Part shown: positions 2,415 through 22,041 of the stretch, piece by piece
Layout: every line of letters begins with the position of its first letter
Numbering within the stretch: the first letter of the stretch is position 1
NCBI GenBank assembly: GCA_938035125.1
Contig: CALHNS010000035.1
Coordinates: 1 to 64,000, forward strand
Origin: an uncultured Granulosicoccaceae bacterium
Lineage (GTDB): Bacteria > Pseudomonadota > Gammaproteobacteria > Granulosicoccales > Granulosicoccaceae
Reading direction: 5' to 3'
Length of the DNA stretch: 64,000 nt
Notes under the pieces: generated by a model
Seen by the model: the letters and a program-made list of their open reading frames with translations, nothing else
Database searches by the model: none
What the model was told of the DNA's origin: nothing
Position numbers and translations under genes: made by a program

Positions 2415-3282
2415 TGTAGCAATAAAACCCAAGCGCTTGTTGCTCAAACGATTTTTGCGTAACAAAACCGCTGTAGTGGGTTTAATCATCATTATGGCGC
2501 TTATAGTATTAGCGCTTATCGGCCCCTGGTTATCGCCATTTTCCTACGATGATGTTGACAGGCAAGCGTACTTAAAGCCACCGAGCTTCCAGCACCCTAT
2601 GGGAACCACTCAATCGGGTCGTGACATGTGGGCGCTTACACTTCATGGGTTGCGTAAATCGTTGGTTATCGGATTGGTTGTTGCGTTACTCTCTACCGCC
2701 ATTGCAGCGGTTGTTGGCTCTTTTGCAGCCTACTACGGTGGCTGGCTTGAGCGATTTTCGTTATGGATTATCGACTTGCTACTGGTTATTCCCTCGTTCT
2801 TACTTATCGCATTAATTGCCGGTAATTCTTCTGGTGGTTCTTCGTCGTGGCTTTTGTTGGTGCTGCTTTTAACATTGTTTGGTTGGATGTTGTCAGCCCG
2901 AGTGGTTAGAAGCTTAACGCAATCGGTAAGACAAAACGAATACATCGCCGCTGCCCGCTATATGGGTTTATCAGGCCCAAAAATAATCGTTCGCCACATA
3001 CTGCCAAACATTGCCTCCTTACTGATTATCGATGCTACCTTAAACGTCAGTGGCGCCATATTGGCAGAAACGAGCCTTGCTTATTTCGGGTTTGGTGTGC
3101 AACCTCCTGATACTTCCTTGGGAACGCTATTAGGCGACGGTGCCAGACAACTGAGTAGTTTCCCTTGGTTGTTTGCAGGTCCTGCAACCATCATTGTGTT
3201 ACTGATTCTTTCGGTTAATGCTGTGGGCGACGGGCTGCGCGATGCGTTCGATCCTAGCTCTGAAGCTTCTGGCAAAGGATGA
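2407..3282 (+). CDS. Peptide/nickel ABC transporter permease, DppC/OppC type
   Basis: Second permease subunit, about 291 residues, partner of the DppB-type protein in the inner membrane. The N-terminus has the typical OppC_N segment: a basic stretch (KPKRLLLKRFLRNK) before the first helix, then a periplasmic loop with the family-like phrase HPMGTTQSGRDM. The transport domain follows with five helices and the EAA loop (YIAAARYMGLSGPKII). The ATG at 2407 lies inside the end of the upstream gene. A longer frame from 2353 is possible, but it would overlap the upstream gene more and adds nothing recognisable. Ten bases separate it from the ATPase gene, so the four genes from 1404 to 7225 look like one operon. 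Confidence 0.88.
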   Translation: MDDVAIKPKRLLLKRFLRNKTAVVGLIIIMALIVLALIGPWLSPFSYDDVDRQAYLKPPSFQHPMGTTQSGRDMWALTLHGLRKSLVIGLVVALLSTAIAAVVGSFAAYYGGWLERFSLWIIDLLLVIPSFLLIALIAGNSSGGSSSWLLLVLLLTLFGWMLSARVVRSLTQSVRQNEYIAAARYMGLSGPKIIVRHILPNIASLLIIDATLNVSGAILAETSLAYFGFGVQPPDTSLGTLLGDGARQLSSFPWLFAGPATIIVLLILSVNAVGDGLRDAFDPSSEASGKG

Positions 3283-3292
3283 ACCAAGCATA

Positions 3293-5440: not shown

Positions 5441-5459
5441 GTTTAACGAACTAAACCTA
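5438..5459. repeat. Inverted repeat between ATPase and binding-protein genes
   Basis: A perfect 8-base stem (TAGGTTTA / TAAACCTA) with a 6-base loop overlaps the stop codon of the ATPase gene. No T-run follows, so it does not look like a strong terminator. It could be a partial terminator or an mRNA-stabilising hairpin that sets the ratio of ATPase to binding protein. Confidence 0.45.
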
Positions 5460-5520
5460 ACTATCTGGTTTTATGTTGTATGTTCTCGTAGTAAGTGGTG
5501 CAATTTATTTAGCAGTAATC

Positions 5521-5533
5521 GGAGATTAACTTG
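5521..5533 (+). promoter_or_regulatory. Ribosome binding site selecting a TTG start
   Basis: GGAG at 5521-5524 is followed after six bases by TTG at 5531, which begins a standard lipoprotein signal peptide. No in-frame ATG lies nearby, so this site decides the start. Confidence 0.6.
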
Positions 5534-7225
5534 AAGCAATCTATCGCCAAGCTTTTTATAGTGGTTACCGCACTGGCCCTTACATCGTGTGGAAAATCAA
5601 AAGACTCCTCTTCCACCTCTGAAAATTCAGATGCAGGCGCAGGTGCGAACGCTGTTTCTGCAACCGCTCAAGATATCAATCCACACCCACGCGATTCGCT
5701 TAAAGGTGGAAAGATCACGCTTAGCGTGACAAACTTTGCCGAGAACTGGAACCCGATGCATGTCGATGGCAATAACCGTGATTACGCTGACGTCAGAAGC
5801 CCGCTGCTACCCGCGTTTTTCAATTTCGACGCAGCCGGTGTGCCCACACCCAATCCAGATTACATCCTATCGGTGGAAGTGGTTAATGAAGATCCAACAG
5901 CCGTTCGCTACAAGCTGAATCCGAAAGCTGTCTGGGGAGATGGCAGCCCAGTAGATGGTGACGATATGGTCGCAAAGTGGAAAGCTTGTAACGGCGAGGA
6001 TACAGAATTTAACTGTGCATCTACAGGCTCTATGGAACCCATAGAATCCATCACCTTCGGTGATGATAAGCACGATGTTACTGTCACATACAAGAGCACT
6101 TTTCCCGATTGGAGCCAAGGCTTCAGCGTTCCTGGTGTTGTTAAAGCCGAAAGCGTTACGAACCCCGAGATATTTAACAACGGTTGGAGTGAACTGAATA
6201 ATGATTGGTTATCGGGGCCTTTCAAAGTCGGTAATTTTGATGCCACTCAGAAAGTTATGACATTGGTACCCAATGATCGATGGTGGGGAGCGACACCGTT
6301 ACTCGATACTATTGTTTGGCGTTCAATAGCACCGGACGCTACCGCGCAGGCGTTTGCGAATCAGGAAATTGATGCCTTCGATATTGGCTCTGATCCAGAT
6401 GCGTTTCAAAGAGCAACACGTGTTGAAAACGCTGAGGTACGTAAAGCCGGTGGCCCCAACTTCAGACACTTCACCTTTAATTCAAAAGCGGGGCTGTTAC
6501 AGGATAAAACCATCCGTCAGGCAATCGTTTATGGCCTAGATAGACAAGCCATCGCAGCCAGTGATCTTGCCGGTATTGATTGGCCGGTAGCCCCATTGAA
6601 TAATCATGTGTTTTTACAAAGCCAAGCCGGTTTTGTTGATACCGCTAAGGCAACTGGCTTGGAATACAATCCAGAAAAAGCAAAAGCTGTATTGGATGAA
6701 GCCGGTTGGATAGTGGGTGAGGATGGAATTCGAGAAAAAGATAACCAGAAGCTCATCGTCAGTTTTTCTCAGCTAGCTACCGTTAAAGCCTCAGAGAATG
6801 AAGCCTTACAAGCGCAAAGCATGTTAAAGGAAATTGGCATTCAGCTAAATATTGTTACCGTTCCAGTAGCGCGCTTCGGACCAACGTTGACTGGTAAAGA
6901 ATTTGAAATAATCGCTTTTTCATGGATAGGCACGCCCTACCCGTTCAGCGGTATCAAGCAGATTTATGGCACCGGTTCGGAAAGTAATTTCGCTCAGTTG
7001 TCCTTACCAGAAGTTGATGAACTGGCAGAGCAGATTAGCGCTGAAACCAATCCTGAAAAGCGAATTGAACTTGCCAATGAAGCAGATCGAATTCTATGGG
7101 AGAACGTACACACCTTGCCCTTGTATCAACGCCCTGAGTTAATTGCTACTCGTCGAGACCTTGCTAACTACGGTGCATTTGGTATGAGTAGCATTCATTG
7201 GGAGGACGTTGGGTTTACTGAATAG
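5531..7225 (+). CDS. Peptide ABC transporter substrate-binding lipoprotein (SBP family 5)
   Basis: Periplasmic solute-binding component, 564 residues, last gene of the importer operon. The TTG start gives a short n-region with Lys residues, a hydrophobic core and lipobox LTSC with Cys20, so it should be a lipid-anchored binding protein. A Ser/Asn/Ala-rich linker follows. The body shows family-5 landmarks: KLNPKAVWGDGSPVDGDDMV, the central phrase FNSKAGLLQDKTIRQAIVYGLDR, and a C-terminal segment ending in LWENVHTLPLYQRPE. Family 5 binds oligopeptides, nickel or haem; the length and a fused ATPase point to peptides, but the ligand cannot be read from sequence. Confidence 0.9.
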   Translation: MKQSIAKLFIVVTALALTSCGKSKDSSSTSENSDAGAGANAVSATAQDINPHPRDSLKGGKITLSVTNFAENWNPMHVDGNNRDYADVRSPLLPAFFNFDAAGVPTPNPDYILSVEVVNEDPTAVRYKLNPKAVWGDGSPVDGDDMVAKWKACNGEDTEFNCASTGSMEPIESITFGDDKHDVTVTYKSTFPDWSQGFSVPGVVKAESVTNPEIFNNGWSELNNDWLSGPFKVGNFDATQKVMTLVPNDRWWGATPLLDTIVWRSIAPDATAQAFANQEIDAFDIGSDPDAFQRATRVENAEVRKAGGPNFRHFTFNSKAGLLQDKTIRQAIVYGLDRQAIAASDLAGIDWPVAPLNNHVFLQSQAGFVDTAKATGLEYNPEKAKAVLDEAGWIVGEDGIREKDNQKLIVSFSQLATVKASENEALQAQSMLKEIGIQLNIVTVPVARFGPTLTGKEFEIIAFSWIGTPYPFSGIKQIYGTGSESNFAQLSLPEVDELAEQISAETNPEKRIELANEADRILWENVHTLPLYQRPELIATRRDLANYGAFGMSSIHWEDVGFTE

Positions 7226-7272
7226 TATTTTCAATACTCTTTTAATTATCCAGCAGCCAGTTTTTTATGTAG

Positions 7273-7306
7273 CCCATTAATTTAAGCCGCCTGTAAAATT
7301 AATGGG
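7273..7306. terminator. Possible bidirectional terminator hairpin
   Basis: A perfect 11-base inverted repeat (CCCATTAATTT at 7273-7283, AAATTAATGGG at 7296-7306) with a 12-base loop sits between convergent genes and overlaps the stop codon of the leftward gene. The stem is A+T-rich and neither side has a clean T-run directly after it, although A-rich bases at 7261-7267 give a few U residues on the reverse transcript. Confidence 0.45.
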
Positions 7307-8093
7307 TTCCGAACTTACCTTGCATCTGTTTAAGCTGATCAACGGCTTGCGCCTCATTCGAAATTCCCTTAACCGATTTACGATAAACACCGCGAAGATG
7401 CCGTTTCAAATACGGTGTCACATCAGAATTTGGAATCTCCTTCAACTGACAGAACAACGCCAACGCATAAGTGGCTTCGGCCTCTGATAGATAGGCATCA
7501 CGTTGTGCATAAGGGTTATAGCAACTACCGCAACCGCCTCGAAAATTGTAAGCGCTGTTGGCAAACATAAACCCAAACCCTAGAAATATCGCTAACAACT
7601 CGGTGGCCTGAGGCCAATTATCGACACCTCCAGGTGGTGGAGCTTTTGCAATCCGCCCCATGTGATGCGACAAAATATGAGCGTAAGTGGCAATCATGCC
7701 TTCAGGATTATTGATCTGTTGTGGGTTATACGGAATAACCAATCGTTGATTATCTGCAACTGAATCATCAGCGATGCCGCGAGGCCCACGTAACGCCCCT
7801 TGAATGGTAATGTGCTGAGACTCAACTGACTGGCACTGTCTCTGATCTTGCACCACGGTGGGCCAGTGACTGATCCCAGCATAGCTCTTGACGCGATCAA
7901 AAATAATCTCGGCCATGCCATGAACGCTATCGACTTTACCTGGAAAGAATTCGTTTGTTGGGCGCACCAAAACCGTATCAGAAAAAAAAACTTCCGCATC
8001 AAAATTCTGCAATGCCCAGCCGAAGCCTTCGAAAATCCACTCGGATGCGGCTGGCTCGATGACAGGCTGTTTATCAAAAGGTCCGAAAGGCAT
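7299..8093 (-). CDS. Unknown protein with HxxxH motif, possible degenerate zincin
   Basis: 264 residues, no signal peptide, function not recognised. The centre carries TYAHILSHHMG (His139, His143, His144), followed about 22 residues later by ATELLAIFLGFGFMFANSA (Glu165). The arrangement recalls bacterial proteins with HExxH followed by a Glu in a helix of the kind 'D/E-LLAVFLGFGIF-AN', except that the catalytic Glu of HExxH is Ile here. Two cysteines follow (GGCGSCYNP, Cys188 and Cys191) and could bind metal. The resemblance is from memory of family patterns, not from a search. The gene lies downstream of the surface-protein operon in the same direction with a 111-base gap, and converges on the peptide importer. 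Confidence 0.65.
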   Translation of the reverse strand: MPFGPFDKQPVIEPAASEWIFEGFGWALQNFDAEVFFSDTVLVRPTNEFFPGKVDSVHGMAEIIFDRVKSYAGISHWPTVVQDQRQCQSVESQHITIQGALRGPRGIADDSVADNQRLVIPYNPQQINNPEGMIATYAHILSHHMGRIAKAPPPGGVDNWPQATELLAIFLGFGFMFANSAYNFRGGCGSCYNPYAQRDAYLSEAEATYALALFCQLKEIPNSDVTPYLKRHLRGVYRKSVKGISNEAQAVDQLKQMQGKFGTH

Positions 8094-8204
8094 GATGTTA
8101 TCTGGCTATACCGAAAATTAGCGTCATGATATCAATTTTCTTTGACTGAATCGGGCAAGCATATATTTAATCAAGCGCTCATTCCAAAAGTAGAAATAGC
8201 AAAA

Positions 8205-11200
8205 TTAGTAGGTTCCGATAAGATTGAAAAACCAACCCTTGGCATCAAAACTACTGCGGGTTAAGTCATCATCAAAGGAGGTGAAGTTATACCCCACCGA
8301 AAACGTTAAGTTATTCCCAACTCGTCGACCGATAGTAAACAATGCGCCTTGACGGACGCCTTCAGTGCTGGCAGAGCCTAGCCAGTGGTAGGCCACTGTG
8401 GCATCAACCCCTAGCAACGCTTTGTAACGTAATCGAGCCGATGCCAATGCGGCATCGTTGTCTATCCAAATCCCTGAGTTTCTTTGCAAACGAATCTCAC
8501 TTTTTCGATAGGCAAATTTCGCCCCGGTGCTCCAAACACGAGTTAAATCGTAAAGACCTTCAACACTTGCAATCGTCGAGCGTTGATCGGTGCGATCCGT
8601 TTGCGACAAGGGCGGAAGATCATTTAAGTACGTTAAGCGCCCAAGCATATTCAGCCGATCATTTTTTACCGGGCGATAGGCAAAGCCAACACCTGCTTCA
8701 ATAAATCGTGCGTCTTCGTCGAGTTTTCTGTCATCGGATACTGAACCGTTAAAAAGGCCCTGCCAACGAAAATCTGGTGAGCTTCGATAATCCAAGCGAT
8801 TCGTTGTAACCCATTGACGAATATCCGTTTCAGCGCCTTCATCCCAGCGAAATTCAAATTTTGAACTGGCCCGGGTTTTGTCATTTTGATAAACCACTCC
8901 TGTGGAAACCGTATCCCGTTCAATTTCATCAGGTGAATTGTTATCTATAACCGCTCTTTGTAGCGATAACGACACTGATGTATATTGGGTTAACTTTTGA
9001 TCAAGCCCAACGGTGTGAGCAAAACCATTTCGATCGTCTTCATCAGAGAATTGATGCTCTGAATACACCTTCAATTGGCTAGACAGGGTTTTACGCTGAC
9101 CCAATACAATCGTATTTCTTATGCTTTCGTTCTGATTAAGTGAATAGGTATAGTTAGAGTATAGGTTGTAAGAATCGCTTACCCCAACATCGACCCCTAA
9201 AATAGCGCTGTTTCCGCGCTCAGATGAGCTGAGCTCTCCGTTAATACCCAATCGATTATTTAAAGTGTACCCAGCCCCTACGGTGCTTCCGTTATTAGAG
9301 GTTTCAGACCCTGAATTTCTCAAAGTTTGCTGGTGTGCAGCGTAAACATTTAAATCATCGGTTACATCGAAATCGGCTTTTGCACCCGCAACCGAGGATG
9401 CACCCGTAGTATTCGCCACAAGATCTGTATCACGCACATCTCGAAGCTCACCCGATAAAGTCAGACGCTGCGTGGCTAAAAAATCGAGTTGTGCTGAAAG
9501 ACTGGTTTCTTCGTTTTGATCACGTCGTTCAATTTGCGTGGCACGAGCTGATACAACAATCCTATCGATTGGTGTTGTCACTAATTCGAATCCGGCATCC
9601 GTGGTATCAACATCCACATCGGTATTCGCTGTTGAAAAACCTGCCGAACGCCGCTTTGCCCACACACCGATATCAAATTGACGGCTTTGCGGTTTAAAAT
9701 CAGTGAGCGATGCTCTTGCCTCAATGCCCACAGCGTTTCCACTGAGAAAATCACCCGATCTTGTCACGGTATCAAAACTGAGCCCACCATCGCTAGATTC
9801 AAAACTACCCGAGGTTTGGGCCGATTCAGTTTCAGCCAATTCGGCTTTGATAAACGTTAGGTCCGATTTCTTCACCACCACATCGGCACCCAGTAATGAA
9901 TAATCACCACCTTCACGGCTTTCGAGCGCCGCGGTACCGCCGATCGCCACATGATCGCTTACCCATTTTTGGCCGCGTGCACCGGCGCTGGTGTCGTTTA
10001 AGTCAAGATTAGGCGGTACGTACTCATAATCTACAATTAAAAAGGTTTGGTTGCCAGCAAGCGGTTCATCACGAATGATGGACGGCCCGGATTGCGCCGC
10101 AACACTGAGTAACGGTCGTTGTAAAAGTATTCGCCCTTGAAAATTATCGATGGTGTAGTCTCGGCCCTCCACAAGGGTAATGCGTTCAACCACACGTTCA
10201 GTATCACTTTGACGCACTTCAACCGATACTTTCTCAGAGCCTGCAACAATATCGGTATCGCGCAAGTAATAAAGGCTGCCACCGGTGCCTAAGAATTCGT
10301 TGTGTCTAAAAAGACTTTGTGCTCTTGAACCAAACACACTAAGACTGTGCGTAGCATCGCCTAAACTCGTATCTTCAGTGCTGATATGACGCAGCTGTGC
10401 ACCGTACAAACTGCGATTAAACGATGAAAATTCAGTACCAGTAAAATTGGTATTGAAATTACCCCAGATAGCGCGAGAACGATCCCAATCGACTCGAACG
10501 TACAGCTTACCTTGGCTATCGGTATCGTCTATCAATTGAGAATCATCACCGTACACCGGATAATACTGATCAGGATCTAAGCGGCGAAAAATGCTATCTG
10601 GGTCTTTTCGGTGAAAATTATCAAATAGGTTCTCGATATCATCGGTTCCTGTATCCATTTGAGCGGTAACTAAATACTTCCCTTTCACTTTACCTTTTAA
10701 GTAAAACGCCAATCGGCCATCCACAAAGATATCGCCGCCATAATGCTGATCATCAACGGATAAAGGTTCAAGTGATCCGCTCACTTTATTCTCACCTACA
10801 GTAACATCAGCCAATCCCACCATGAATAGGTAATCACTGTTAACGTCCACTCGCAAGGATTTAAAGGGCGCGGTACCTTGCGCTGAACTTAAGCCTACAT
10901 CAAACGTATGTTCGCCATCGGGTTTTATAAATTCAATACCGAATCGGCCATCGTTGCCAACAATAATTGGGTGCTGATTGATGAGAAGTTTAGCGCCAGG
11001 TTTTAAATCTTGACCTAAAATTCGAACCATCGTACCTCGTACTAAAATAGATTCACGCACTAATCCGGACAATTCATCCACTTCTTTTTCTAATTCCTGA
11101 TTCACTAAAATATCAGGAATAGCAATTTCATCAGTGGCACCGGTTTCTATATCATCAAAAAACAACGTTTGACGTTCAGTTAGATCCGAGCGACCGTCCG

Positions 11201-11798
11201 CATCGCTTGCTCTTAGCGCATAATGTAATTGTAAGCCTGGCTTCAATTCTTTTTGAATACCGTCTAAATTCCATTCAATTTGCTGCCAACTTGCCGAAGC
11301 ATCCAATGGTTTAATGACTAGCGGCTTGGCCGTATCGGAGGCAAGCTGATCATAGATCAATAAATCCAAGGATTGAATGAAATGATCATAATTCGTGCTG
11401 ACTTCAAATACGATAGGCTTTTCAAGCTGCCCGTTATTGATCGAAACACGGTTTGATGTAGAGGCGTTTAACGTTCTTTGCAATGAGGTTGGATCTTGTG
11501 AAATCCACACCGCACCATTGGAATCCAACTGCGTAAGCCGAACCTCATTGGCAATTTCCTCAACCGGTACTTTACGCGTTAATGTAACGTCGGCTCGTCG
11601 ATTCTCAGCTCGCCCTTCCTCGGTACGATTCGTTGCACGAGGGTTCCCTTCACCCGATTTTATAATACGCAGAACATAAGGGGCAACGGTTTCACAATCC
11701 TCAGATTGGCACGGCTCGTCGTTAGCCGCTGTGAACCGTGGCATAAAGGCCAATCCACAGATTATGCACAGGGCCAGAGTCAAGGTACGCATTTTCAT
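8205..11798 (-). CDS. Large outer-membrane beta-barrel protein with OmpA-tail-like N-terminus
   Basis: 1197 residues with a clear signal peptide (cleavage near residue 25, FTAAND). Residues about 40-75 contain GEGNPRATN and EGRAENRRADVTL, which match the last strand and terminal segment of OmpA-type peptidoglycan-binding domains but without the rest of that domain. Residues about 80-330 are Ig-like and beta-rich. From about 340 on, alternating strands with repeated aromatic and polar residues form what looks like a large barrel, ending in an aromatic residue (FFNLIGTY), as outer-membrane porins do. It is the last gene of the four-gene operon. Its ATG overlaps the upstream stop by 4 bases, with GGAG 8 bases before it. 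Role unknown; it could anchor or export the repeat proteins. Confidence 0.75.
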   Translation of the reverse strand: MKMRTLTLALCIICGLAFMPRFTAANDEPCQSEDCETVAPYVLRIIKSGEGNPRATNRTEEGRAENRRADVTLTRKVPVEEIANEVRLTQLDSNGAVWISQDPTSLQRTLNASTSNRVSINNGQLEKPIVFEVSTNYDHFIQSLDLLIYDQLASDTAKPLVIKPLDASASWQQIEWNLDGIQKELKPGLQLHYALRASDADGRSDLTERQTLFFDDIETGATDEIAIPDILVNQELEKEVDELSGLVRESILVRGTMVRILGQDLKPGAKLLINQHPIIVGNDGRFGIEFIKPDGEHTFDVGLSSAQGTAPFKSLRVDVNSDYLFMVGLADVTVGENKVSGSLEPLSVDDQHYGGDIFVDGRLAFYLKGKVKGKYLVTAQMDTGTDDIENLFDNFHRKDPDSIFRRLDPDQYYPVYGDDSQLIDDTDSQGKLYVRVDWDRSRAIWGNFNTNFTGTEFSSFNRSLYGAQLRHISTEDTSLGDATHSLSVFGSRAQSLFRHNEFLGTGGSLYYLRDTDIVAGSEKVSVEVRQSDTERVVERITLVEGRDYTIDNFQGRILLQRPLLSVAAQSGPSIIRDEPLAGNQTFLIVDYEYVPPNLDLNDTSAGARGQKWVSDHVAIGGTAALESREGGDYSLLGADVVVKKSDLTFIKAELAETESAQTSGSFESSDGGLSFDTVTRSGDFLSGNAVGIEARASLTDFKPQSRQFDIGVWAKRRSAGFSTANTDVDVDTTDAGFELVTTPIDRIVVSARATQIERRDQNEETSLSAQLDFLATQRLTLSGELRDVRDTDLVANTTGASSVAGAKADFDVTDDLNVYAAHQQTLRNSGSETSNNGSTVGAGYTLNNRLGINGELSSSERGNSAILGVDVGVSDSYNLYSNYTYSLNQNESIRNTIVLGQRKTLSSQLKVYSEHQFSDEDDRNGFAHTVGLDQKLTQYTSVSLSLQRAVIDNNSPDEIERDTVSTGVVYQNDKTRASSKFEFRWDEGAETDIRQWVTTNRLDYRSSPDFRWQGLFNGSVSDDRKLDEDARFIEAGVGFAYRPVKNDRLNMLGRLTYLNDLPPLSQTDRTDQRSTIASVEGLYDLTRVWSTGAKFAYRKSEIRLQRNSGIWIDNDAALASARLRYKALLGVDATVAYHWLGSASTEGVRQGALFTIGRRVGNNLTFSVGYNFTSFDDDLTRSSFDAKGWFFNLIGTY

Positions 11799-14700
11799 CG
11801 CTCTTGCTCCTGATAAGCTTCAGGATTAACATCCACTGTTACCGACTCCATGGCGTGTTTGCCAAGCTTTTCTTCCAGCACACGTCGGATGGTTTCAGCG
11901 CGACGCTCGGCAAGATCTAGGTTGTATTGATAATCACCGATAGAATCCGTATGCGCCTCTATTAATATGGTTCCGCCTCCGTATTCACGCAGCTTTTTAA
12001 CAATATCGGCAACGATGCCTTGTTGATCGGCGCGAACGTCATAACGATCGGTATTAAAAAAGACGCTACCTAAAAGCACTTCCACACTGTGAGTTGCAAC
12101 ATCATTCGCCTCTGTCTGGCACAGTGGGCTGGTTTGGTTAACATACGGATCGGCACCAGGCAGTTTTACACCGAAATTGATTTTGTTCAGCGACGAATTT
12201 ACGATGCGAAGCACATACGGGTTTTCTGTGGTAAACGATGCACCTTGTGGCAAGGTTGCTGGGTCCACTTTAAGAACGAAGTTTTGCCCAATACCAGTCG
12301 TACCTGCATCAACATCTGGGATGCTATAACGACCGTAGGCATCGGTTTCTATCAATAATCCGGTAACGGTTGCTAGTCGGGCTCCTGGTATTCCAAGTTC
12401 ATTCACACCGTAGTTTTGAATGACTATTTGAAGAACATCCGTTGGTTCGCCGCCAGCACTGCCATACCCACTACGTGGGGTTGGAACATCCACGGTGTAT
12501 TGGGTGCACACACGAATGTCTTGCCCCGTTAAGCCTTGCGCCTTTTCACCGATGTGAGCTTCAGATATGGTGCCTTGATGATCGACACTGATTTTCGTCC
12601 CTTCTTGGGTGGACACCGAAAAGGCGTTGTTATTAGAGACTGGCATGTTCACTACCAGCGCACGATCAGATGGGTTAGCACTGACGCTGTCACGACCAGG
12701 TAAAGCCGGCAACAGCAGACTGTTCCAACCGTAGAAGTCACTTCGTAACACTACACCCGTTGCATCAGCAGGATCTTGGCTACCATCTTCATCTCGATCG
12801 TTAAACACCTTACCTACTAAAGTGGCTTGTTCCAAGACAGGATCGGGCACAACCGTCACACTTGCTGATACTGAGTTACTGGCAACGCCATTAGGGCCAC
12901 TAGCACTTGCCGTGTTTGTATAGTCTCCGGCAACGACGCCAACACCCACTCGCATTAAGTAGGTAATCTGAACCGTTTCAAGCGGATCAAGATCTATGGC
13001 ACCAAGCTGCATAGGATTGGAGCCGACTAAGGCGATGTTAGTGACCGTGTCATCATCGGTACCAAGCACCTCATCAGCTCCCGCTCGAATCAAACGGACC
13101 GATTCTTCAACTAACGCAAAATTAGGTGGCGGATTATCGACAATAACGATATCTAACGCAGGAACCTCGTTTGTGTTCTCTGCATTGATGGTGTAACCGG
13201 CAATGGACCCACGGGATACCGTGCGTTGATCAACCGTTTTACTTAATAATATCTGTGCATCGTTCGCTCTAGAATCAATCGGAATATGATTGAATACAAT
13301 ATTCTGATCACCAAATTCTAAAAAGAATTCTACAAAGTACTGTGTATTCTCGATCAACTGCGGTGCATCGGGTTGTACTTGTACTTCACAAGCATCCGAA
13401 TTTGGAATTGTATCCACTGTACAATTAGATTCAACTAGGGCTGCATCAAAGGTTTCTGATACCGCACAACCTAAGGTGGCATCACCGCAGCCTTCAGCGC
13501 CCGCTTGGCGAATAATGTTTGAATACCCGGCGCGGTAACTCTCTGGTACGTCAGCAATTACAATGCGATAGATTTCGCCATTCAAGCACGTTGGGTGCGC
13601 ACCCAAATTGACATTAAATGAGTAAAGGCCATCAGCTTCAGTGATTTGAGATTGCTGATTCTCGCGTAAGCAAAGCTCATCAACTGGTTGGCCGCTGCCA
13701 TTGATTAAATTTAGAGTAACACCAGCCACAGCTTGCCTAGATACACTGTCATATATGACACCGCCAGGATCCACTCGCAATGGAAGATTCACCAGATCAC
13801 CAGACCCAATGGGTCCGTTGGTGGTTTGGCTATCCATAAACACACCCGATTCGTTATAAAATTCAACGGTGTATTCCCCAGGCACTAGCCCTTCTACCCG
13901 GTAGTAGCCGTTAGCATCAGTAGTGGTCGTGGCAACTTCATTTCCTTGAGCATCCAGTATGCGTAGCGTCCAATTAACTTTTAGTTCCTCATTGGCGCCC
14001 ACTAACCCGTCACGATCACTGTCTAACCAAACGATACCTTCTATGGTGGCAGGTAACTCATAGGTGACGGTTACTAGGGCAACGTTCGATTCCAGATCAG
14101 TAGAATCCTTAACGGTGTACATCACAGGAGTTGGGTTTTCTATAAACCCAGGCTCTGGAAAGAAGGTGACATCACCAGTAAGAACATCCACTACCCAGGC
14201 ACCTTCACCTATCACCGTAAGCTCAAGCACAGAATTACCTGAGGCTGGGTCAATCAATCGCACGCTGGTGCTATCGATATTATTTTCAGGATCAGAATCA
14301 TTAGCCAACAACGCAAGTGTTACCGGTTGCGCTAAAGGTTGATTCAGCTTTTCATCATCAATGGCAATGGGAGCGGTTTGAGGATAATCAATAGTGATTT
14401 TCGCCTCATTCGACAACAATCCATTAAAATCTTCGATAGTATAAAAAATCGGTGTGGGGTCTAATAGAAATCCAGCGATTGGGGTAAAGGTTACAACGCC
14501 TGTGGCATTGTCTAGTATCCACTCGCCTTCACCTGCCACCGTTAACGAATCGTTATCACCATCGCCGTCTGTGTCAATCGCATCTGGGTGCACAAAATTC
14601 GTTCGAGTAACATCGATATCGTTCTCAGGATCTCTATCAACACCGCTTCCGTTATCAGCCAGCACATTCACTAACGTTGGGTTCGTAGGGCTTGCAACGA

Positions 14701-17344
14701 TGAGGTTTTGCTGAAAATCATCTTCTGCAATCGGTGCAGATTGCGGATAATCGATACTGAGCGTTGCCTCATTCGATACCAGCTCTGTTGCATCATTGAC
14801 GGTATAGACGATGGGTGTTGGATCGGCTGTGAACCCAGCTTCAGGTGTGAACGTCACCTCACCGTTAACATCATTAACCAACCAAGTGCCCTCATTAGGC
14901 ACCACCAATTGGTCGTTATCGCCATCGCCGTCCAAATCACTTGCATTAACTGAAACTAAATGTACGCTGGTTGGATCCAAATCACCGTTGGCATCGGTAT
15001 CATTCTGAGCACCTTCTAAGGTTACAGCTACCGCGCTGACAGGCGATTCAAACGCATCATCGATCGCAACGGGTGGAATACGTGTTAATGGAACCACCAC
15101 CATATCACTGTCATCTGATATTTCATTTCCTAACGGATCTGTTGCACTTACAGAAGCTTGATTAGTGATACTGGTAGTACCGATATCATCAATTGTGGCC
15201 GTTCGTGTGACAGTACAATTAAGTTGCTCAGTAGGTTGTAATGTAAATGGTATGGGTAAGGCGCACGTTAATGACCCAACATCGGCTGTTAGGTCAGTAA
15301 CACTGATATTACTGAGCACAACATTACCTGAATTCACTACCTGTAAGGTGTAGGTTAACGTATCACCTATGGTGGTAAAACCAGTGTCGTTGGTCGATTT
15401 AACCAATGTTATGGCAGGTGCTTGATTGATAGCGGTTGAAGCCGTATCACGTTGCGACCCAGCCTCAGCAGTTGCCACATCAACCGAATTTATAAGCGTT
15501 AAACCGGCATCAATATCTATTTGATTCGCCCCATATTGCGCGGTAAACACCCATGTTTCGCCCACATCAAGCACCCCATTCACACCGGTATCTACCACCG
15601 GGCCTGAGACAATTGCGCTGCTTCCATCAGGCAACGTATCGTTAACCACAATATTGGTTAATGAGGTGTTACCGGTGTTAACTACACTGATTTCATAATT
15701 CAGATCACTAGGTTCTGCGATCGTTATAGTGTCTACGGTTTTTTCAACCGTAAATGAAGGGCTTCTAGAGACTGTGGTTTGTGCCGTATCACTGACAACA
15801 GCATCAGCTGTTTCATCTGAGGTTACATCTACTCGATTAATCAAACTTAACCCTTGATCAATCTCAGCCTGTGATACGTTATAAACGGCTGTGAATTCCC
15901 ATGACTCACCTACATCCAACTGCCCGACTAAGCCAGAATCATTCGTAGGCCCTAATAGGGTTGCGTTAGAACCATCAGGTAACGTATCAATTGGTAGAAC
16001 ATTCGATAAACTGACGTTTCCGCTATTCTCTATAGTAATAACGTAATTCAATAATCCAGGAGCACTCAAGGTACTCGTATCTACCGCTTTCGCTACTGTA
16101 AAAGCAGGAGCTGTTGCAATATTCGTTGTGGCTGTGTCGGTGAATATCTCTGTCAATGTTTCATCAGTAGAAACAGCAATCGTATTAACCAACGCTACAC
16201 TTGCATCAATATCAGCTTGGCTAGCGTCGTAGGTTGTGGTGTATTCCCATACCTCACCCACATCGAGAGATCCGATAATGCCTGTATCGGAGATTGGGCC
16301 CACCAATACCGCATTACTGCCATCAGGTAAGGTGTCGATCGGGGTTACATTGGTTAATGTGGCATTACCGGTGTTTTCTATTGAAATCGAATACGTTAGT
16401 GTTGTTGGTTGTGCAATCTCTTGCGTATCCACGGTTTTTGTTACTAGCAACTGCGGTGCAAGCTCAATGCTCGTGGTCGCATCATCTTGTCGAGTAACGC
16501 CTGGCATTTCAACCGCTGTAACTGACACTTCATTTGTTAACAAAGCCCCAGTATCAATATCAGATTGAGTAGCCGAATAAGTTCCAGTGTATGTCCATAT
16601 TTCTCCCACATCCAAGGCATTGGCAATTCCTGCATCGGTTGCAGGACCCGTTAACGTGCCTAACGAGCCATCCGGCAAATTATCAACTAACGCAACACCG
16701 GTTAATGTTTGATTCCCTGTATTTTTAATGTCAATGGTGTAGGTCAATAACGAGGGGGTATTTACAACGGCCTTATCCACCTGCTTACTCACAGTAAAAT
16801 CAGGCCCTTGAGTAATGGCGACGAAAGCGGTATCGCTCAGTGGGTCTAGTTCGTTGGTTGTGACAGTAACCAGGTTATCAATATCGCCATCACCGCCACC
16901 AAAATTATCTATATCGGCTTGAGTGATCGCATAGGAACCTGTGAATACCCACACTTCATTACCATCTAAAATATTGTCATTATTCGTATCTCCACTGCTG
17001 AGTGATAAATCAGCGGCAGGAATAATCGAATCATTAAGCGTCACACCGGTTAAAGGCAGAAGGCCTAAATTATCTAAGGTAATCGTGTAATTAATAACCT
17101 CCCCGGCTTTAGTCGGGGTTGATAACTGCGAACCATCGGCCACCTTCTCAATAGATAATCCTTTAGGCTGAACCAACACGGTACCCGTGTTGTTACTGCC
17201 ATTATTTTCAAACTGAGCGGGGGCCGAAAGTACAATTCCAGTATTGGTAAAATCGGTTTCGGTTAATGCGTACACAGAAGCCAGCCCTGTTCCGAAGAAC
17301 AGAGCTGACGTTGCACTAATAAATTTAACCAGAAAACGATTCAT
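11795..17344 (-). CDS. Giant surface protein with DUF11, cadherin-like, SdrD-B-like and OmpA-type domains
   Basis: 1849 residues with an N-terminal signal peptide (cleavage near SVYA-LTETDF). In order: six DUF11-type modules (about residues 65-755, with recurring LPDGS and LDVGE.W phrases); three tandem repeats starting P(V/I)A.DD with Asp-rich loops such as DGDGDND (about 755-1095); an SdrD-B/prealbumin-like module (GIVWLDSDRDG, about 1098); a further carbohydrate-binding-like module; another DUF11 (about 1363); a second SdrD-like module (GKVFNDRDEDGSQDP, about 1511); and an OmpA-type domain (about 1755-1849, with FFNTDRYDV, EAHTDSIG and AERRAE). The OmpA domain stops before its usual NRRVEI end. 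The peptidoglycan-contact Asp and Arg are present. Inferred to span from peptidoglycan through the outer membrane to the outside. Confidence 0.85.
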   Translation of the reverse strand: MNRFLVKFISATSALFFGTGLASVYALTETDFTNTGIVLSAPAQFENNGSNNTGTVLVQPKGLSIEKVADGSQLSTPTKAGEVINYTITLDNLGLLPLTGVTLNDSIIPAADLSLSSGDTNNDNILDGNEVWVFTGSYAITQADIDNFGGGDGDIDNLVTVTTNELDPLSDTAFVAITQGPDFTVSKQVDKAVVNTPSLLTYTIDIKNTGNQTLTGVALVDNLPDGSLGTLTGPATDAGIANALDVGEIWTYTGTYSATQSDIDTGALLTNEVSVTAVEMPGVTRQDDATTSIELAPQLLVTKTVDTQEIAQPTTLTYSISIENTGNATLTNVTPIDTLPDGSNAVLVGPISDTGIIGSLDVGEVWEYTTTYDASQADIDASVALVNTIAVSTDETLTEIFTDTATTNIATAPAFTVAKAVDTSTLSAPGLLNYVITIENSGNVSLSNVLPIDTLPDGSNATLLGPTNDSGLVGQLDVGESWEFTAVYNVSQAEIDQGLSLINRVDVTSDETADAVVSDTAQTTVSRSPSFTVEKTVDTITIAEPSDLNYEISVVNTGNTSLTNIVVNDTLPDGSSAIVSGPVVDTGVNGVLDVGETWVFTAQYGANQIDIDAGLTLINSVDVATAEAGSQRDTASTAINQAPAITLVKSTNDTGFTTIGDTLTYTLQVVNSGNVVLSNISVTDLTADVGSLTCALPIPFTLQPTEQLNCTVTRTATIDDIGTTSITNQASVSATDPLGNEISDDSDMVVVPLTRIPPVAIDDAFESPVSAVAVTLEGAQNDTDANGDLDPTSVHLVSVNASDLDGDGDNDQLVVPNEGTWLVNDVNGEVTFTPEAGFTADPTPIVYTVNDATELVSNEATLSIDYPQSAPIAEDDFQQNLIVASPTNPTLVNVLADNGSGVDRDPENDIDVTRTNFVHPDAIDTDGDGDNDSLTVAGEGEWILDNATGVVTFTPIAGFLLDPTPIFYTIEDFNGLLSNEAKITIDYPQTAPIAIDDEKLNQPLAQPVTLALLANDSDPENNIDSTSVRLIDPASGNSVLELTVIGEGAWVVDVLTGDVTFFPEPGFIENPTPVMYTVKDSTDLESNVALVTVTYELPATIEGIVWLDSDRDGLVGANEELKVNWTLRILDAQGNEVATTTTDANGYYRVEGLVPGEYTVEFYNESGVFMDSQTTNGPIGSGDLVNLPLRVDPGGVIYDSVSRQAVAGVTLNLINGSGQPVDELCLRENQQSQITEADGLYSFNVNLGAHPTCLNGEIYRIVIADVPESYRAGYSNIIRQAGAEGCGDATLGCAVSETFDAALVESNCTVDTIPNSDACEVQVQPDAPQLIENTQYFVEFFLEFGDQNIVFNHIPIDSRANDAQILLSKTVDQRTVSRGSIAGYTINAENTNEVPALDIVIVDNPPPNFALVEESVRLIRAGADEVLGTDDDTVTNIALVGSNPMQLGAIDLDPLETVQITYLMRVGVGVVAGDYTNTASASGPNGVASNSVSASVTVVPDPVLEQATLVGKVFNDRDEDGSQDPADATGVVLRSDFYGWNSLLLPALPGRDSVSANPSDRALVVNMPVSNNNAFSVSTQEGTKISVDHQGTISEAHIGEKAQGLTGQDIRVCTQYTVDVPTPRSGYGSAGGEPTDVLQIVIQNYGVNELGIPGARLATVTGLLIETDAYGRYSIPDVDAGTTGIGQNFVLKVDPATLPQGASFTTENPYVLRIVNSSLNKINFGVKLPGADPYVNQTSPLCQTEANDVATHSVEVLLGSVFFNTDRYDVRADQQGIVADIVKKLREYGGGTILIEAHTDSIGDYQYNLDLAERRAETIRRVLEEKLGKHAMESVTVDVNPEAYQEQER

Positions 17345-17351
17345 TTACGTT

Positions 17352-19688
17352 TTACGGGGCTAGGACAACAGCTTGGAAAGTCAGCACGACAGGAGCACCC
17401 ACAGGCACCGCATTAATCGTCCATGTCAAGCCAGCACCGGTAGGATCACTATCGTCGGTCACGTCACCGCCACCAATAGAGCCTGGAACGTAAGTAAATC
17501 CTGCAGGAACCGGATCGAGAACCGTTACATCGGTTGCTAAATCTGGCCCAGCATTAGTGACTTCTAAATTAAAAGTTATGGTGTCTCCAATATTCGGCGT
17601 ACCATCATTAACGGTTTTGGCAATCGATAGATCAATGCCTAAGTCATTATTATCAATGGCACAGGTCACATCAGCACCTGGTAGTAGCGTAATATCTGTT
17701 CCAGTGGCAACCCCTGCACTTGGCAAGTTGGTTGTTAATCCATTGGCATCAGTACAGGCCCAAGTGCCTTCAGAATAAGCCGCTAAATCCAGCTCACTGA
17801 TATTGATAACCGTGTTTGCCAAAACAGTATTGGCAGCCCCACTAATAACTTCAACTCCATCAATAGAGATATCAAAATCATCAACAACTTGATCACCACC
17901 ATTGTCATTAATTACGTTCTTAACCAACGTAAGAACAGGCGCAATATCGTCATTGCTGATATTACAAGTTACTTGCGAACCTTGTTTTAGCTGGAATATT
18001 TCACCCGCTGCCGCACCAGCTGTGGGTAAGCCTGTAGTAAGCCCTGTTGCGTCTGAACATTCCCAAACGCCTGCGGTGTAACCAGGTAATTCTAGCTCAG
18101 ATATTTCAATATCTGCATTCGCTGCTACGATATTTGATCCGCCATTGGGTACCACAACACCATCAATGGATATATTAAAATCACTGACTAATTTGTCACC
18201 ACCATCATCATTAACAACCACTTTTGCAAGCGTTAGAGTGGGCGCGATATCATCATTGGTAATTCTACAAATAACTTCTGCACCAGGCGCAAGCGATATA
18301 TTCTCACCCGTTGCAACACCTGCCGCCGGTAAGCCTTGCGTTAAACCATTGGAATCCACACAAGACCATTCACCTTCTGTGTAACCTGGCAAATCCAATT
18401 CACTGATAAGGATTGTTGAATTAGCGAGCACGGTATTCGCTATGCCATTATTAACAATGGTACCGTCGATAGAGAGTTCAAAATCAGCTACCGTTAGGTC
18501 ACCACCATCATCGCTAACTAGATTTTTAGCAAGTGTTAATGTGGGTGCAATATCATCATTAGAAATGGCACAATTTACATCACTACCTACGCTTAACGTA
18601 ATAACTTCACCCGTAGCTAAGCCCGCTGTTGGCAATGTGGTTGTAAGCCCATTGGCATCTACACAAGACCATGTACCTTCAACATAACCTGGTAGATCCA
18701 GTTCCGAGATAGTGATAGCTGAATTGGCTAATACGGTATTCGGAGAACCCGCTGCCACGACGGTACCATCTATAGAAAGATCGAAATCAACCGTTGATTT
18801 CAAACCACCGTCATCATTAATAACTGTTTTCGCAAGCGTTAATATTGGAGCTATATCATCGTTGCTTATTTCACAGGTAACATCAGCACCAGAGGCAAGC
18901 GTTATCACTTCCCCAGTGGCTAAACCTGCTGTGGGTAACCCGGCGGTTAAACCATTGGCATCAGAACATTCCCATGTACCTTCGGTATAACCATCAACCA
19001 ACAGCTCACTAATAGTAATGGGAGTATTTGAGGCAACGGTTGTAGGTGTTCCGCTAGCTACAACACTGCCATCCACTGACAGAGAAAAATCGGCATCGGT
19101 CAGTAAACCACCATCGTCGTTAACCACATTTTTCGCAAGCGTTAATGTAGGCGCAATATCGTCATTACGAATACGACAAACCGTTTGCTCACCAAAGGCC
19201 AGTGTCACCGAACCAGAATCAAACAGAGTGCTTCCCATGGTTCCAACAGAACAATTCCAATCGCCCTCGGTATACCCGTCGAAATCTATTTCTGATAATG
19301 TGTATACACCGGGAGGCACATAGATCGTTTCAGAGGTATAGGTAGTGGCATCACCGGTAACCACACCGGCATCGAATGTTAAGGCACCCGCGCTCGTTGC
19401 TACACCAAAGTCACCTAATACGCCTACCCCACCATCGTCATTCACCACTTGCTTGACAATAATAATTTCTGCGTTCGGTATAATTTGAACCGTATCGACA
19501 TTATTTATTGTGTTGGTTTCAAATTGAGAGCTTGACGCCACCACGGTCGACTGATTTAAATAATCTGAAAGCGTTAAAGACCAAGCGGTGAGCGGCACCG
19601 TTATGCCCACAAACAATAAAGCTAACTTTGCTTTCAGCGAAGTTCGCTTTTTGATTCTCTTAAATTTTTCGTACAGTCGTAGTTTCAT
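17352..19688 (-). CDS. Exported protein with six prealbumin-like repeats and a DUF11 domain
   Basis: 778 residues. A long basic n-region (KFKRIKKR) precedes a hydrophobic core and a probable cleavage at TAWS-LTLSDY. Residues about 76-684 are six repeats of roughly 100 residues. Each runs from a strand like LTLAK.V.NDDGG through ISEL...GYTEG.W.C to a C..SNDDIAP boundary. This is the prealbumin-like/SpaA-type fold used as spacer modules in adhesins, with one Cys pair per repeat. The last 94 residues form a DUF11 module ending in VLTFQAVVLAP, with no visible sorting signal after it. An AAGGAAAGG ribosome site precedes the ATG. It lies 7 bases upstream of the giant gene and 14 downstream of the first operon gene. 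Confidence 0.85.
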   Translation of the reverse strand: MKLRLYEKFKRIKKRTSLKAKLALLFVGITVPLTAWSLTLSDYLNQSTVVASSSQFETNTINNVDTVQIIPNAEIIIVKQVVNDDGGVGVLGDFGVATSAGALTFDAGVVTGDATTYTSETIYVPPGVYTLSEIDFDGYTEGDWNCSVGTMGSTLFDSGSVTLAFGEQTVCRIRNDDIAPTLTLAKNVVNDDGGLLTDADFSLSVDGSVVASGTPTTVASNTPITISELLVDGYTEGTWECSDANGLTAGLPTAGLATGEVITLASGADVTCEISNDDIAPILTLAKTVINDDGGLKSTVDFDLSIDGTVVAAGSPNTVLANSAITISELDLPGYVEGTWSCVDANGLTTTLPTAGLATGEVITLSVGSDVNCAISNDDIAPTLTLAKNLVSDDGGDLTVADFELSIDGTIVNNGIANTVLANSTILISELDLPGYTEGEWSCVDSNGLTQGLPAAGVATGENISLAPGAEVICRITNDDIAPTLTLAKVVVNDDGGDKLVSDFNISIDGVVVPNGGSNIVAANADIEISELELPGYTAGVWECSDATGLTTGLPTAGAAAGEIFQLKQGSQVTCNISNDDIAPVLTLVKNVINDNGGDQVVDDFDISIDGVEVISGAANTVLANTVINISELDLAAYSEGTWACTDANGLTTNLPSAGVATGTDITLLPGADVTCAIDNNDLGIDLSIAKTVNDGTPNIGDTITFNLEVTNAGPDLATDVTVLDPVPAGFTYVPGSIGGGDVTDDSDPTGAGLTWTINAVPVGAPVVLTFQAVVLAP
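17637..19463 (-). repeat. Six in-frame coding repeats of about 300 bases
   Basis: The DNA coding for the six prealbumin-like modules forms a tandem array of about 305-base units. Protein similarity between units is high at the NDDGG, GYTEG and SNDDIAP landmarks, while synonymous positions differ, so the array is old rather than freshly duplicated. Homologous recombination could still change the copy number. Confidence 0.7.
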
Positions 19689-19702: not shown

Positions 19703-21589
19703 TTAAGGTGCCAACACAGTTGCCTGAAACGTCAACGACGTTGAGGCACCGGAAGCGAGCGAATTAATGGTCCAAATCAAACCTGTACCCGTGGGATCAC
19801 TGTCATCTCGCACATCGCCCCCTGCCATTGAGGCTGCGATGTAGGAAAAACCAGCAGGGATTGGATCGAATACTTGAACATCAGTGGCCGTATCGGGGCC
19901 GATGTTGTTTACAGTTAATGTATATGTCAGCGCATCGCCAACATTGGGTGCGGTATTATCAACCGTCTTATTAATACGTAAATCTATTCCAAGGTCATCA
20001 TTTAGAAAAAAACAAGTGACGTTCTCACCAGCACTGATTTTTACACCATCAGAACCATCGCTATCAATGCCATCACATTTAATTCCCTGTAGCGTATAGC
20101 CTGGCACATCGCTCTCACCAAGATCATATACTCCTGGAAATACAGGAACCGAGGTAATAGATGCATCGCCAGTTACGCCACTGTTTGACCCACTAGGCCC
20201 AGAATATTTTAAGGTGAAATCTGTAGCAACTGCGCTACCACCAGAATTATTCGTTACTTGCTTAACAAGGGTAAGCGTTGCAACTAAATCATCATCATTT
20301 ACGATAGTGCAGGTAACATCATCGCCAACACTAATCTCAACTCTGGAACCTGCAAAATTGGTTGCCCCGGTGCAGCTCCAGCTGCCCGCGGTATACCCAA
20401 ATACGGATGGTTCAGACAACACATAAATACCTGGTGAAACAGGCGCATTGGTCACATCAGGCGTGCCACTAACACCACTTACCGTAACCGGACCTGCAGC
20501 AGTTAATGGAAAATCGAGCAGCGTAGCGGTACCGCCATGATCGTTAATTAATTCTTTTTCAAGCGTAATTTCTGCGCCCGAAAACGCCCAGTAATAAAGA
20601 GGTTCTGTTGTATGGTTTCGCGTTCTATCACCGGCAACTTCTTCTTCATCTACCGCCAAAACAATCAAATTGGGTGGTAAAGGATCAGCGCCATATAAGA
20701 CAGCCCATGAGCCATTTACTCCATCCATACGTGCCTGAGTGACAACAGCGATGTTGTGATCAGCATTCAAAGAATAGCTGCGCCCTGTATTCGCCGCATT
20801 GTTACCAGTAATGCGATCGGCACCGAGCGCAAGCTCATAAAACACATTATTAACAGTGCCGCTGCCTGCATCGGCAACGATATAACCAATGGTTTCAGGA
20901 TTTCTTGAATCCGCAATCATCCCTATTTGTTTACCAACACAAACACTGTCTGTGGGGCCGTTAAAGAAAGGTTGTCTTAACCTACTTGTGCAATCATTAA
21001 CGTATATCGTGCTAGCACGATTATCGTTATAACTGATGACTTGACCCAGTACGACAGGATCGGTGTAACTGTGCACAAGGCTAGAGGTAACATCTTCAAC
21101 CAGCGATGGATCCCAAGCCCCATCGGTTGCGTTCTGACCACTGGTTTGATCTGATAACACACTGTGCGCTTCCACCAATCGCCCATCTGGAAAGGTATGC
21201 GCACCTTCGTCCACAACAATGCAGTGCACATCTGTAGTTGACGTAGGGCCATCTTCCCATCCTTGCACCCTAACCTGAAACGAATTAGCTGTTATGTTTC
21301 GAATTCTAGTGGCGGCAGGTGGATCAACATAGTTACCGGCCGTGCCTGCGAAGGTACCTAAAACATGTGAGCAAACCGGGATGGCATTAGCGTATGTATT
21401 CTCTAGTGAAACCGTTGTCCACGACGTGCTTACACCCGAAACTAGGACTGCCTCAAAATACGGGGTTAATGTCAACGCGCGAGCTTGATTGGTAAATGCA
21501 CACAGGCACACCAACAAGGCCATTTTTATCAGGGCAATTGAGTTTTTGTGTAAGAACTGCAAACTATGCAGAACAAAATCAATACGCAT
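19703..21589 (-). CDS. Exported lectin-like protein with prealbumin-like and DUF11 domains
   Basis: About 628 residues, first gene of the surface operon. An ATG at 21589 is preceded in frame by a GTG at 21592; neither has an obvious ribosome site. The signal peptide is long, with likely cleavage at ARA-LTLTPY. Residues about 45-340 hold a repeated pattern (SWTTVSLENTY, then CSHV; YTDPVVLGQV; ETIGYIVADAG; RNHTTEPLYYWAF) that resembles H-type-lectin-like modules often found in front of DUF11 domains in marine bacteria. Two prealbumin-like repeats follow, with the GYT...C...NDD pattern. The last 94 residues are a DUF11 module almost matching that of the next gene and ending LTFQATVLAP. Likely a sugar- or surface-binding tip protein; the ligand is unknown. 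Confidence 0.8.
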   Translation of the reverse strand: MRIDFVLHSLQFLHKNSIALIKMALLVCLCAFTNQARALTLTPYFEAVLVSGVSTSWTTVSLENTYANAIPVCSHVLGTFAGTAGNYVDPPAATRIRNITANSFQVRVQGWEDGPTSTTDVHCIVVDEGAHTFPDGRLVEAHSVLSDQTSGQNATDGAWDPSLVEDVTSSLVHSYTDPVVLGQVISYNDNRASTIYVNDCTSRLRQPFFNGPTDSVCVGKQIGMIADSRNPETIGYIVADAGSGTVNNVFYELALGADRITGNNAANTGRSYSLNADHNIAVVTQARMDGVNGSWAVLYGADPLPPNLIVLAVDEEEVAGDRTRNHTTEPLYYWAFSGAEITLEKELINDHGGTATLLDFPLTAAGPVTVSGVSGTPDVTNAPVSPGIYVLSEPSVFGYTAGSWSCTGATNFAGSRVEISVGDDVTCTIVNDDDLVATLTLVKQVTNNSGGSAVATDFTLKYSGPSGSNSGVTGDASITSVPVFPGVYDLGESDVPGYTLQGIKCDGIDSDGSDGVKISAGENVTCFFLNDDLGIDLRINKTVDNTAPNVGDALTYTLTVNNIGPDTATDVQVFDPIPAGFSYIAASMAGGDVRDDSDPTGTGLIWTINSLASGASTSLTFQATVLAP

Positions 21590-22041
21590 CACATTTTAAG
21601 TAAACGACGAATCGCCTACGCTACATTTCATTGTGATGGGGTTATTTCAAGCAACGCGCCAGTTTAAGCGTGTTCGTATTTTTTTAAAATTATGATCGAA
21701 TTGCAAAGAATCAGCCGTACCCACATTGGTATAGCAACTGAGAATAAGAGTACGGTTAATCGACAATGTGTTAGGTGTATAACAATCTTTTTCGATGATC
21801 TATAACTTATCGTACACCTTTTACTATACTTATTGATAGGTAATAAAATTACGCTCACATAGGAATATTTACTAATCCTTGCGACAGATGGGAACCGCGC
21901 TACCCATTGAGAATACAACGACACCGTTGCGTCAATATATCGTCATTACGCACGTCAACACATTCATATAAATTCAACTTAGGTATAGGCACAGAATTTC
22001 TGGTTTGACACGGTAAAGAACGCCAACACAAGTAAGTAAAC
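21590..22041. other. Intergenic region upstream of the surface operon
   Basis: About 450 A+T-rich bases between the Rieske/CMD operon and the surface operon, both leftward. The operon promoter should be here, but I could not pick a convincing hexamer pair. A leftward 86-codon frame at 21664-21924 lacks a ribosome site and has an unnatural composition. No RNA gene or repeat was recognised. Confidence 0.4.

Follow-up and report, generated by a model that had tools for sequence, protein, structure and literature searches.

One OmpA-type domain divided over two overlapping genes of a Granulosicoccaceae bacterium

Type V secretion, which includes the autotransporters and two-partner secretion, combines a passenger with an outer-membrane barrel. 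Chaperone-usher pilins use donor-strand complementation, whereby a single strand is supplied by a partner to an Ig-like fold. In the outer membrane exchange of myxobacteria, the surface receptor TraA is paired with TraB, a partner holding a whole OmpA domain, and we know of no split of that domain in TraA-TraB. The giant surface adhesin AtaA is held non-covalently by a second, peptidoglycan-binding protein, TpgA (PMC13082670). Here we analyze a locus in which a peptidoglycan-binding domain of the OmpA type is itself divided. It lies in a 64,000-nucleotide stretch (the window; positions 1 to 64,000 of contig CALHNS010000035.1, assembly GCA_938035125.1) of an uncultured Granulosicoccaceae bacterium, where gene A, for a repeat-rich protein ending in the first part of the domain, overlaps gene B, in which the remaining part precedes a large outer-membrane barrel.

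The domain and its two pieces

The arrangement had been noticed in a first-pass annotation made from the letters of the sequence, and its coordinates, the 4-base overlap and the motifs it named were correct. The features of the two genes, in window positions, are as follows.

11795..17344, minus strand: gene A (P0002), 1849 residues, with a signal-like N-terminus, DUF11, DUF7507, CshA-type and SdrD_B repeats and a C-terminal truncated OmpA domain
11798..12112, minus strand: A residues 1745–1849, the OmpA fold from strand 1 through strand 3, including the wall-contact residues (EAHTDS, YN, ERRA), without helix 3 and strand 4
11864–12061, minus strand: profile match of PF00691 in A
11807..11810, minus strand: GGAG, a ribosome-binding-like site for B within the last codons of A
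11795..11798, minus strand: overlap ATGA, stop of A and start of B
8205..11798, minus strand: gene B (P0001), 1197 residues, with a signal-like N-terminus, the C-terminal OmpA piece, an Ig-like domain and a large outer-membrane barrel
11727..11798, minus strand: B residues 1–24, signal-peptide-like as judged by eye
11580..11684, minus strand: B residues 39–73, the OmpA end that A lacks (strand 3', helix 3 and the NRR-bearing strand 4), placed by model matches, conservation and the joined profile
11151..11480, minus strand: B residues 107–216, a beta-rich domain between head and barrel in the AlphaFold2 (AF2) model, predicted local confidence (pLDDT) about 80
8208..10901, minus strand: B residues ~300–1197, outer-membrane barrel with approximate limits, matched by PF13505 at residues 809–971 and presumed for the remainder

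The tail of A contains EAHTDSIG and AERRAE and stops at ..VTVDVNPEAYQEQER, before the last OmpA strand, as the annotation had it. PF00691 covers only profile positions 1–67 of 98, and neither helix 3 nor strand 4 with its NRR-like end was found in the A chain by sequence or profile alignment. This truncation stands out within the genome, where 23 of the 24 above-cut-off OmpA matches end at profile position 87–98 and only the window's A ends at 67; three further matches below cut-off, which end at 74–76, are left out of the 24. The side chains through which the OmpA fold contacts peptidoglycan are Asp, Asn and Arg (PMC7192894), and all three are in A. Modeled alone by AF2, the A half forms a beta-alpha-beta-alpha-beta arrangement (pLDDT 70–85) from which the final helix and strand are absent.

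B begins with the signal-like stretch, followed by PYVLRIIKSGEGNPRATNRTEEGRAENRRADVTL. Nine NCBIfam models (E ≤ 0.05) match B within residues 38–76, all of them by their C-terminal parts; they describe OmpA-type lipoproteins, MotD, type VI secretion system TssL/DotU forms and one 'hypothetical protein'. The YiaD model aligns with A at positions 102–168 and with B (E 3.7e-4 with the whole of B, 2.2e-5 with its first 120 residues) at 171–205 of 206, which agrees with the annotation's view that B carries the missing OmpA end directly after a signal of its own. The large barrel it had assigned to B likewise matches the outer-membrane barrel family PF13505, at 29.9 bits against a cut-off of 28.7. 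The search it proposed with PF00691 found the domain in A, whereas B gave no Pfam OmpA match, in the window or in any of the heads of the 20 B proteins from the same family. Modeled alone by AF2, the B head is disordered.

The two pieces are complementary. We built a profile of 111 columns from 15 intact OmpA domains of the same genome (of 23 extracted, some of them repeating one and the same domain, these 15 had the required NRR-like end). A scored 60.1 bits over columns 5–72, with no full OmpA domain by profile, B scored 24.4 bits over columns 79–110, and the joined pieces reached 89.3 bits over columns 5–110. Since 27 control joins of A with other stretches of B gave at most 59.7 bits, the complementarity is not due to chance. 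A and B each have their own candidate for strand 3 (VTVDV and YVLRIIKSG, respectively), so that the cut duplicates a strand; the join is full-length with either, at 89.3 bits or, using B's own copy, 87.3 bits. In addition, profiles of the pieces made from the family sets align with complementary ranges of the same solved OmpA structures, A then B: 15–77 and 86–115 of 118 in 9v99_A, 3–83 and 92–121 of 123 in 5u1h_A, and 15–81 and 98–121 of 123 in 3td3_A. That one OmpA-type domain is divided over two overlapping genes is confirmed by these data.

Conservation of the split and its relatives

The junction is uniform in the Granulosicoccaceae. All 20 A–B pairs read from the family have the 4-base overlap (17 ATGA, 3 GTGA), and GGAG stands upstream of the B start at every one of the 20 junctions. 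Among 48 family genomes, a split-type B was found in 20 (that of G014 is cut by a contig end), a one-chain form in G031 and fragments only in G001 and G010. Matches to the A half (E < 1e-16) fall in the same 20 genomes and in G001, whose A is at the end of a contig. The A half and B thus co-occur in the same 20 of 48 genomes, with fragments of both in G001. The B head has a mean pairwise identity of 0.55, compared with 0.18 for the signal region, 0.24 just before the head and 0.25 just after it, and so forms an island of conservation. In A, identity is 0.67 from strand 1 to helix 1, 0.56 from strand 2 to helix 2 and 0.40 in strand 3 and the tail, compared with 0.24 in the preceding linker. PF00691 matches 19 of the 20 family A tails (the remaining one is likely that of G058), and single NCBIfam models of the OmpA end match at most 16 of the 20 B heads.

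The split also occurs in other families. In a sample from the class, 49 of 369 genomes match the B profile at E ≤ 1e-20, some over less than full length. Within the family f13 the figure is 33 of 119 genomes at E ≤ 1e-100; three f13 matches (G535:C64, G606 and G566) have type III length (see below) and are not among the pairs read. In all 29 readable f13 pairs, A and B overlap or lie within 15 bases: the overlap is of 4 bases in 16 and of 11 bases in two, and B starts 4–15 bases after the A stop in 11, with the B start chosen mechanically. All 30 A tails of f13 and f108 match PF00691. Compared with type I, the f13/f108 A halves match at E 1.3e-22 and the heads at E 2.9e-15, part of the latter score coming from a conserved stretch behind the head. 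The comparison of homologous loci that the annotation had called for therefore found the same split, both within the Granulosicoccaceae and beyond.

We then asked about the signature residues, read from profile alignments of 63 loci as the Asp, Asn and Arg columns of A and the RR signature of B. Both parts are present in 61 of these (L116 and L137 were left out as their A was not found). When Asp, Asn and Arg are all required, 57 pairs keep both signatures, four have lost both (G058, G173, G481 and G608) and none is mixed; L105 has only the first Arg of the B signature (RQ), and the B head of L094 (G481) is hardly matched. The four joint losses are independent on the tree, with four changes each. 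Such joint loss is expected if both pieces form one functional unit.

The tree was made from the barrels by a quick method (79 rows, 450 columns), with four one-chain, OmpA-bearing barrels (type IV) as the outgroup set. Rows not otherwise read were labeled type III by default; the contig of G085 ends before the head is reached, and the A of G382, G478 and G464 was left out. L116 entered the tree as a split row although its A is missing. The 52 rows labeled split form one group, support 99, together with G159, G173, G031 and the cut contig G085. Its sister (type III) comprises 19 rows, most of them pairs of genes in which the A tail has decayed.

Several relatives are single chains. G159 (a frame of 11,777 codons) and G173 (2,579) have A and B in one reading frame, and by eye a signal-peptide-like stretch with an AxA-type end lies between their two OmpA pieces; most simply, these are fusions of a formerly split pair. 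The G159 frame (contig C2; L044, L079) encodes a giant repeat protein, both OmpA pieces and the barrel. A one-frame form of type III, in G148, is without the signal-like stretch. G031 has a continuous OmpA domain in one chain, and type IV likewise combines an intact OmpA domain and the barrel in a single chain. The order in G031, G159, G173 and type IV is passenger, OmpA domain, barrel. We considered G031 as the ancestral state and dropped the idea; by eye its domain is closer to the OmpA repeats of type III B, and therefore we draw no evolutionary direction from it.

For the type III pairs, the A tails are similar to the A halves of f13/f108 (probability 74, E 2.8e-5) and, weakly, to those of type I (E 0.01; P 0.002–0.007); their best OmpA match in the PDB is not significant (E 0.35). 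The corresponding element of type III B, the QRCTDVAL region, showed no match to the heads of type I (P 0.15). On these weak matches we rejected type III as proven split OmpA pairs and left them as possible cases, outside the 61-pair count. Type III B proteins (L053–L065) often have one to three complete OmpA domains before the degenerate QRCTDVAL element.

Two further features of the pieces were recorded. Where the A halves are in tandem (L045, L047, L098–L126), the first half has mostly lost its contact motif. A C-x4-C pair lies directly before the OmpA head of B (window positions 11683–11726, B residues 25–39), and recurs in the majority of family pairs and almost all f13/f108 heads. An interchain disulfide between this pair and a Cys of A shortly before strand 1 was considered and dropped, as the two do not co-occur over the 20 pairs: the A Cys is found without the B pair in G012, G027 and G035, and the B pair without the A Cys in G060 and G064.

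A proposed joint completed in trans, and the alternatives

Functional coupling of the two pieces is likely, judging from their sequences, because the split is conserved, the B piece is a conserved island, the pieces co-occur and their signature residues share one fate. We consider it probable that A and B, once exported, complete one OmpA fold in trans, which would dock the surface protein on its barrel and, in most lineages, form the wall anchor. Thus, A and B would be two halves of one surface-display machine, cut inside its periplasmic peptidoglycan-binding domain. Translational coupling would have both chains made together; each would be exported, A possibly passing through B; the C-terminus of A and the head of B would then meet in the periplasm, and the completed fold would serve as a non-covalent joint between the surface protein and its barrel. 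As the contact residues are in A and the closing strand in B, the wall anchor would form only with both partners present. An OmpA fold can accept a foreign strand, as PorE shows (PMC7192894).

The annotation had offered two explanations: either a new start and stop had divided an old domain, or a split fold links the chains. The link gains partial support from the conserved split, the co-occurrence and the shared fate of residues, and the two may in fact be the same: the one-chain relatives with passenger, OmpA domain and barrel look autotransporter-like, and the split pair might be such a protein cut at its periplasmic joint. More tentatively, and at somewhat less than even chances in our estimate, an autotransporter-like display system of gammaproteobacteria was cut at this joint, its giant passenger and barrel being exported as two chains and rejoined by the split domain, with docking and wall anchoring as one assembly-dependent event; in type III the decayed A half may have stayed as a docking element while wall binding moved to the complete OmpA domains in B.

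A number of observations weigh against completion in trans. A candidate strand 3 is found in both chains. The A half is modeled alone with fair confidence and thus may not need B, while the structure model of B is poor (mean pLDDT 35) and the Foldseek E-values are modest (best 0.005, none < 0.001). The f13/f108 heads have diverged, no single OmpA-end model matching more than 6 of 30, and their profile gave no OmpA match in the PDB at E ≤ 1. Their A proteins carry two tandem truncated halves, and only one head was found in B. Export of each chain is an assumption. When Asp and Arg alone are scored, the 61 pairs divide into 57 both kept, three both lost and one mixed (G058), with a Fisher p of 1.1e-4 counted by sequences; the tree-based sign test gives p 0.125, below which four pairs cannot take it. 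Lineages that could do without wall binding would show joint loss as well.

Some of these points would suit pieces that are kept but work separately, the truncated domain of A folding and binding peptidoglycan alone and the B head being a separate short element, such as a signal for assembly with, or docking to, a different partner. The three contact residues in A (PMC7192894), the AF2 model of the lone A half and the extra truncated half of f13/f108 without a second head all fit. This explanation is unlikely in our view, as the match of the B head is to the absent end of OmpA itself, and the two pieces keep or lose their signature residues together. A relic origin, in which a new start and stop interrupted what was once a one-chain protein and one or both pieces fell out of use, would agree with the intact single chains of type IV and with the four pairs decayed in both pieces. 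It is disfavored by conservation and we regard it as quite improbable: strong conservation extends to both pieces in 57 of 61 pairs, which come from several families, and the head is far better conserved than the stretches flanking it. Least probable is a sequencing error, or recoding by a frameshift that yields one continuous chain. A 4-base overlap of genes in different frames could invite it, but the identical junction in 20 of 20 family pairs means that the split is not a sequencing error, after recoding the ~24 signal-like residues of B before the head would land inside the domain, and the GGAG site precedes B; the sequencing error that the annotation had named as its possible undoing, here a frameshift, was not found.

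If completion in trans is true, the pair is a natural split envelope protein, whose classic wall-binding fold also serves as a lock between surface fibre and barrel. This would account for the holding of a giant surface protein encoded by two genes, with a built-in check by which only paired chains are anchored, and would offer a natural split-fold pair for measuring affinity, periplasmic folding and response to force. The evolutionary series of intact one-chain proteins, split pairs and one-frame forms with a signal-like segment would show a domain changing into an interface, and is material for study.

Surroundings of the locus and comparison with known systems

The window's contig (C35) belongs to an incomplete genome (3.54 Mb, 92.5% complete). 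A and B end a minus-strand run of four genes, whose upstream members are the following.

17352..19688, minus strand: P0003, 778 residues, SpaA-like and DUF11 repeats by domain matches
19703..21592, minus strand: P0004, 629 residues, SpaA-like and DUF11 domains by domain matches

The same four-gene order is found in L003–L005, L130 and L131. A, P0003 and P0004 carry DUF11, DUF7507, CshA-type or SpaA-like repeats, like surface fibres. P0003 and P0004 (17352–21592) each finish with a DUF11 domain whose last residues (..LTFQAVVLAP) are nearly the same in both; this ending recurs, slightly changed, in those five loci and could be an assembly or sorting signal. Elsewhere in the genome, a paralogue of 2052 codons (L029, G000:C19, locus bases ~2765–8920) is a single chain of DUF11-like repeats and a related barrel, in which no OmpA piece was seen by eye; it is followed by an OmpA protein of 207 codons (C19:107160–107447). 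Weak matches to one-chain barrels of ~2000 codons occur in many family genomes. In three genomes of genus g2 (L014, L015, L018), the gene downstream of B has a lipoprotein-like start or OmpA-like motifs.

In the open-licence literature of PubMed Central, judged from the openings of listed abstracts, we found no description of a split OmpA domain or of this gene pair. A possible link to type 11 secretion was set aside as not relevant, the text match for DUF11 in PMC12282271 being mostly to DUF1194.

Among known systems, the OmpA/Pal/MotB domain (PF00691) has the same fold order and wall-contact residues once our pieces are joined; the difference is that here it would be spread over two exported chains, whereas it is one chain in 23 of the 24 above-cut-off cases of the genome. 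Donor-strand complementation is similar in that a segment from a partner would complete an incomplete fold, and differs in that here the fold is the alpha/beta one of OmpA, lacking helix 3 and strand 4. With type V secretion the locus shares passenger-like repeats and an outer-membrane barrel. Autotransporters (type Va) are unlike it in that there are two chains here, with a single chain in G031, G159, G173 and type IV. From two-partner secretion it differs in that the three matches which Pfam gave for B at E ≤ 10 include no POTRA domain, and the link would instead be a split wall-binding domain. The TraA-TraB pair, whose TraB model was among the model-search matches, also combines a surface receptor with an OmpA-domain partner, but the OmpA domain of TraB is whole.

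The nearest working parallel is AtaA-TpgA (PMC13082670), in which a peptidoglycan-binding partner holds a giant adhesin. The TpgA family model NF047726 gave 34.8 bits with A, against a cut-off of 350, and B had no listed match to it. In that system, the trimeric barrel of the adhesin binds a periplasmic partner bearing a peptidoglycan-binding domain of its own; here, fibre and barrel are on different chains, each of which carries part of the wall domain.

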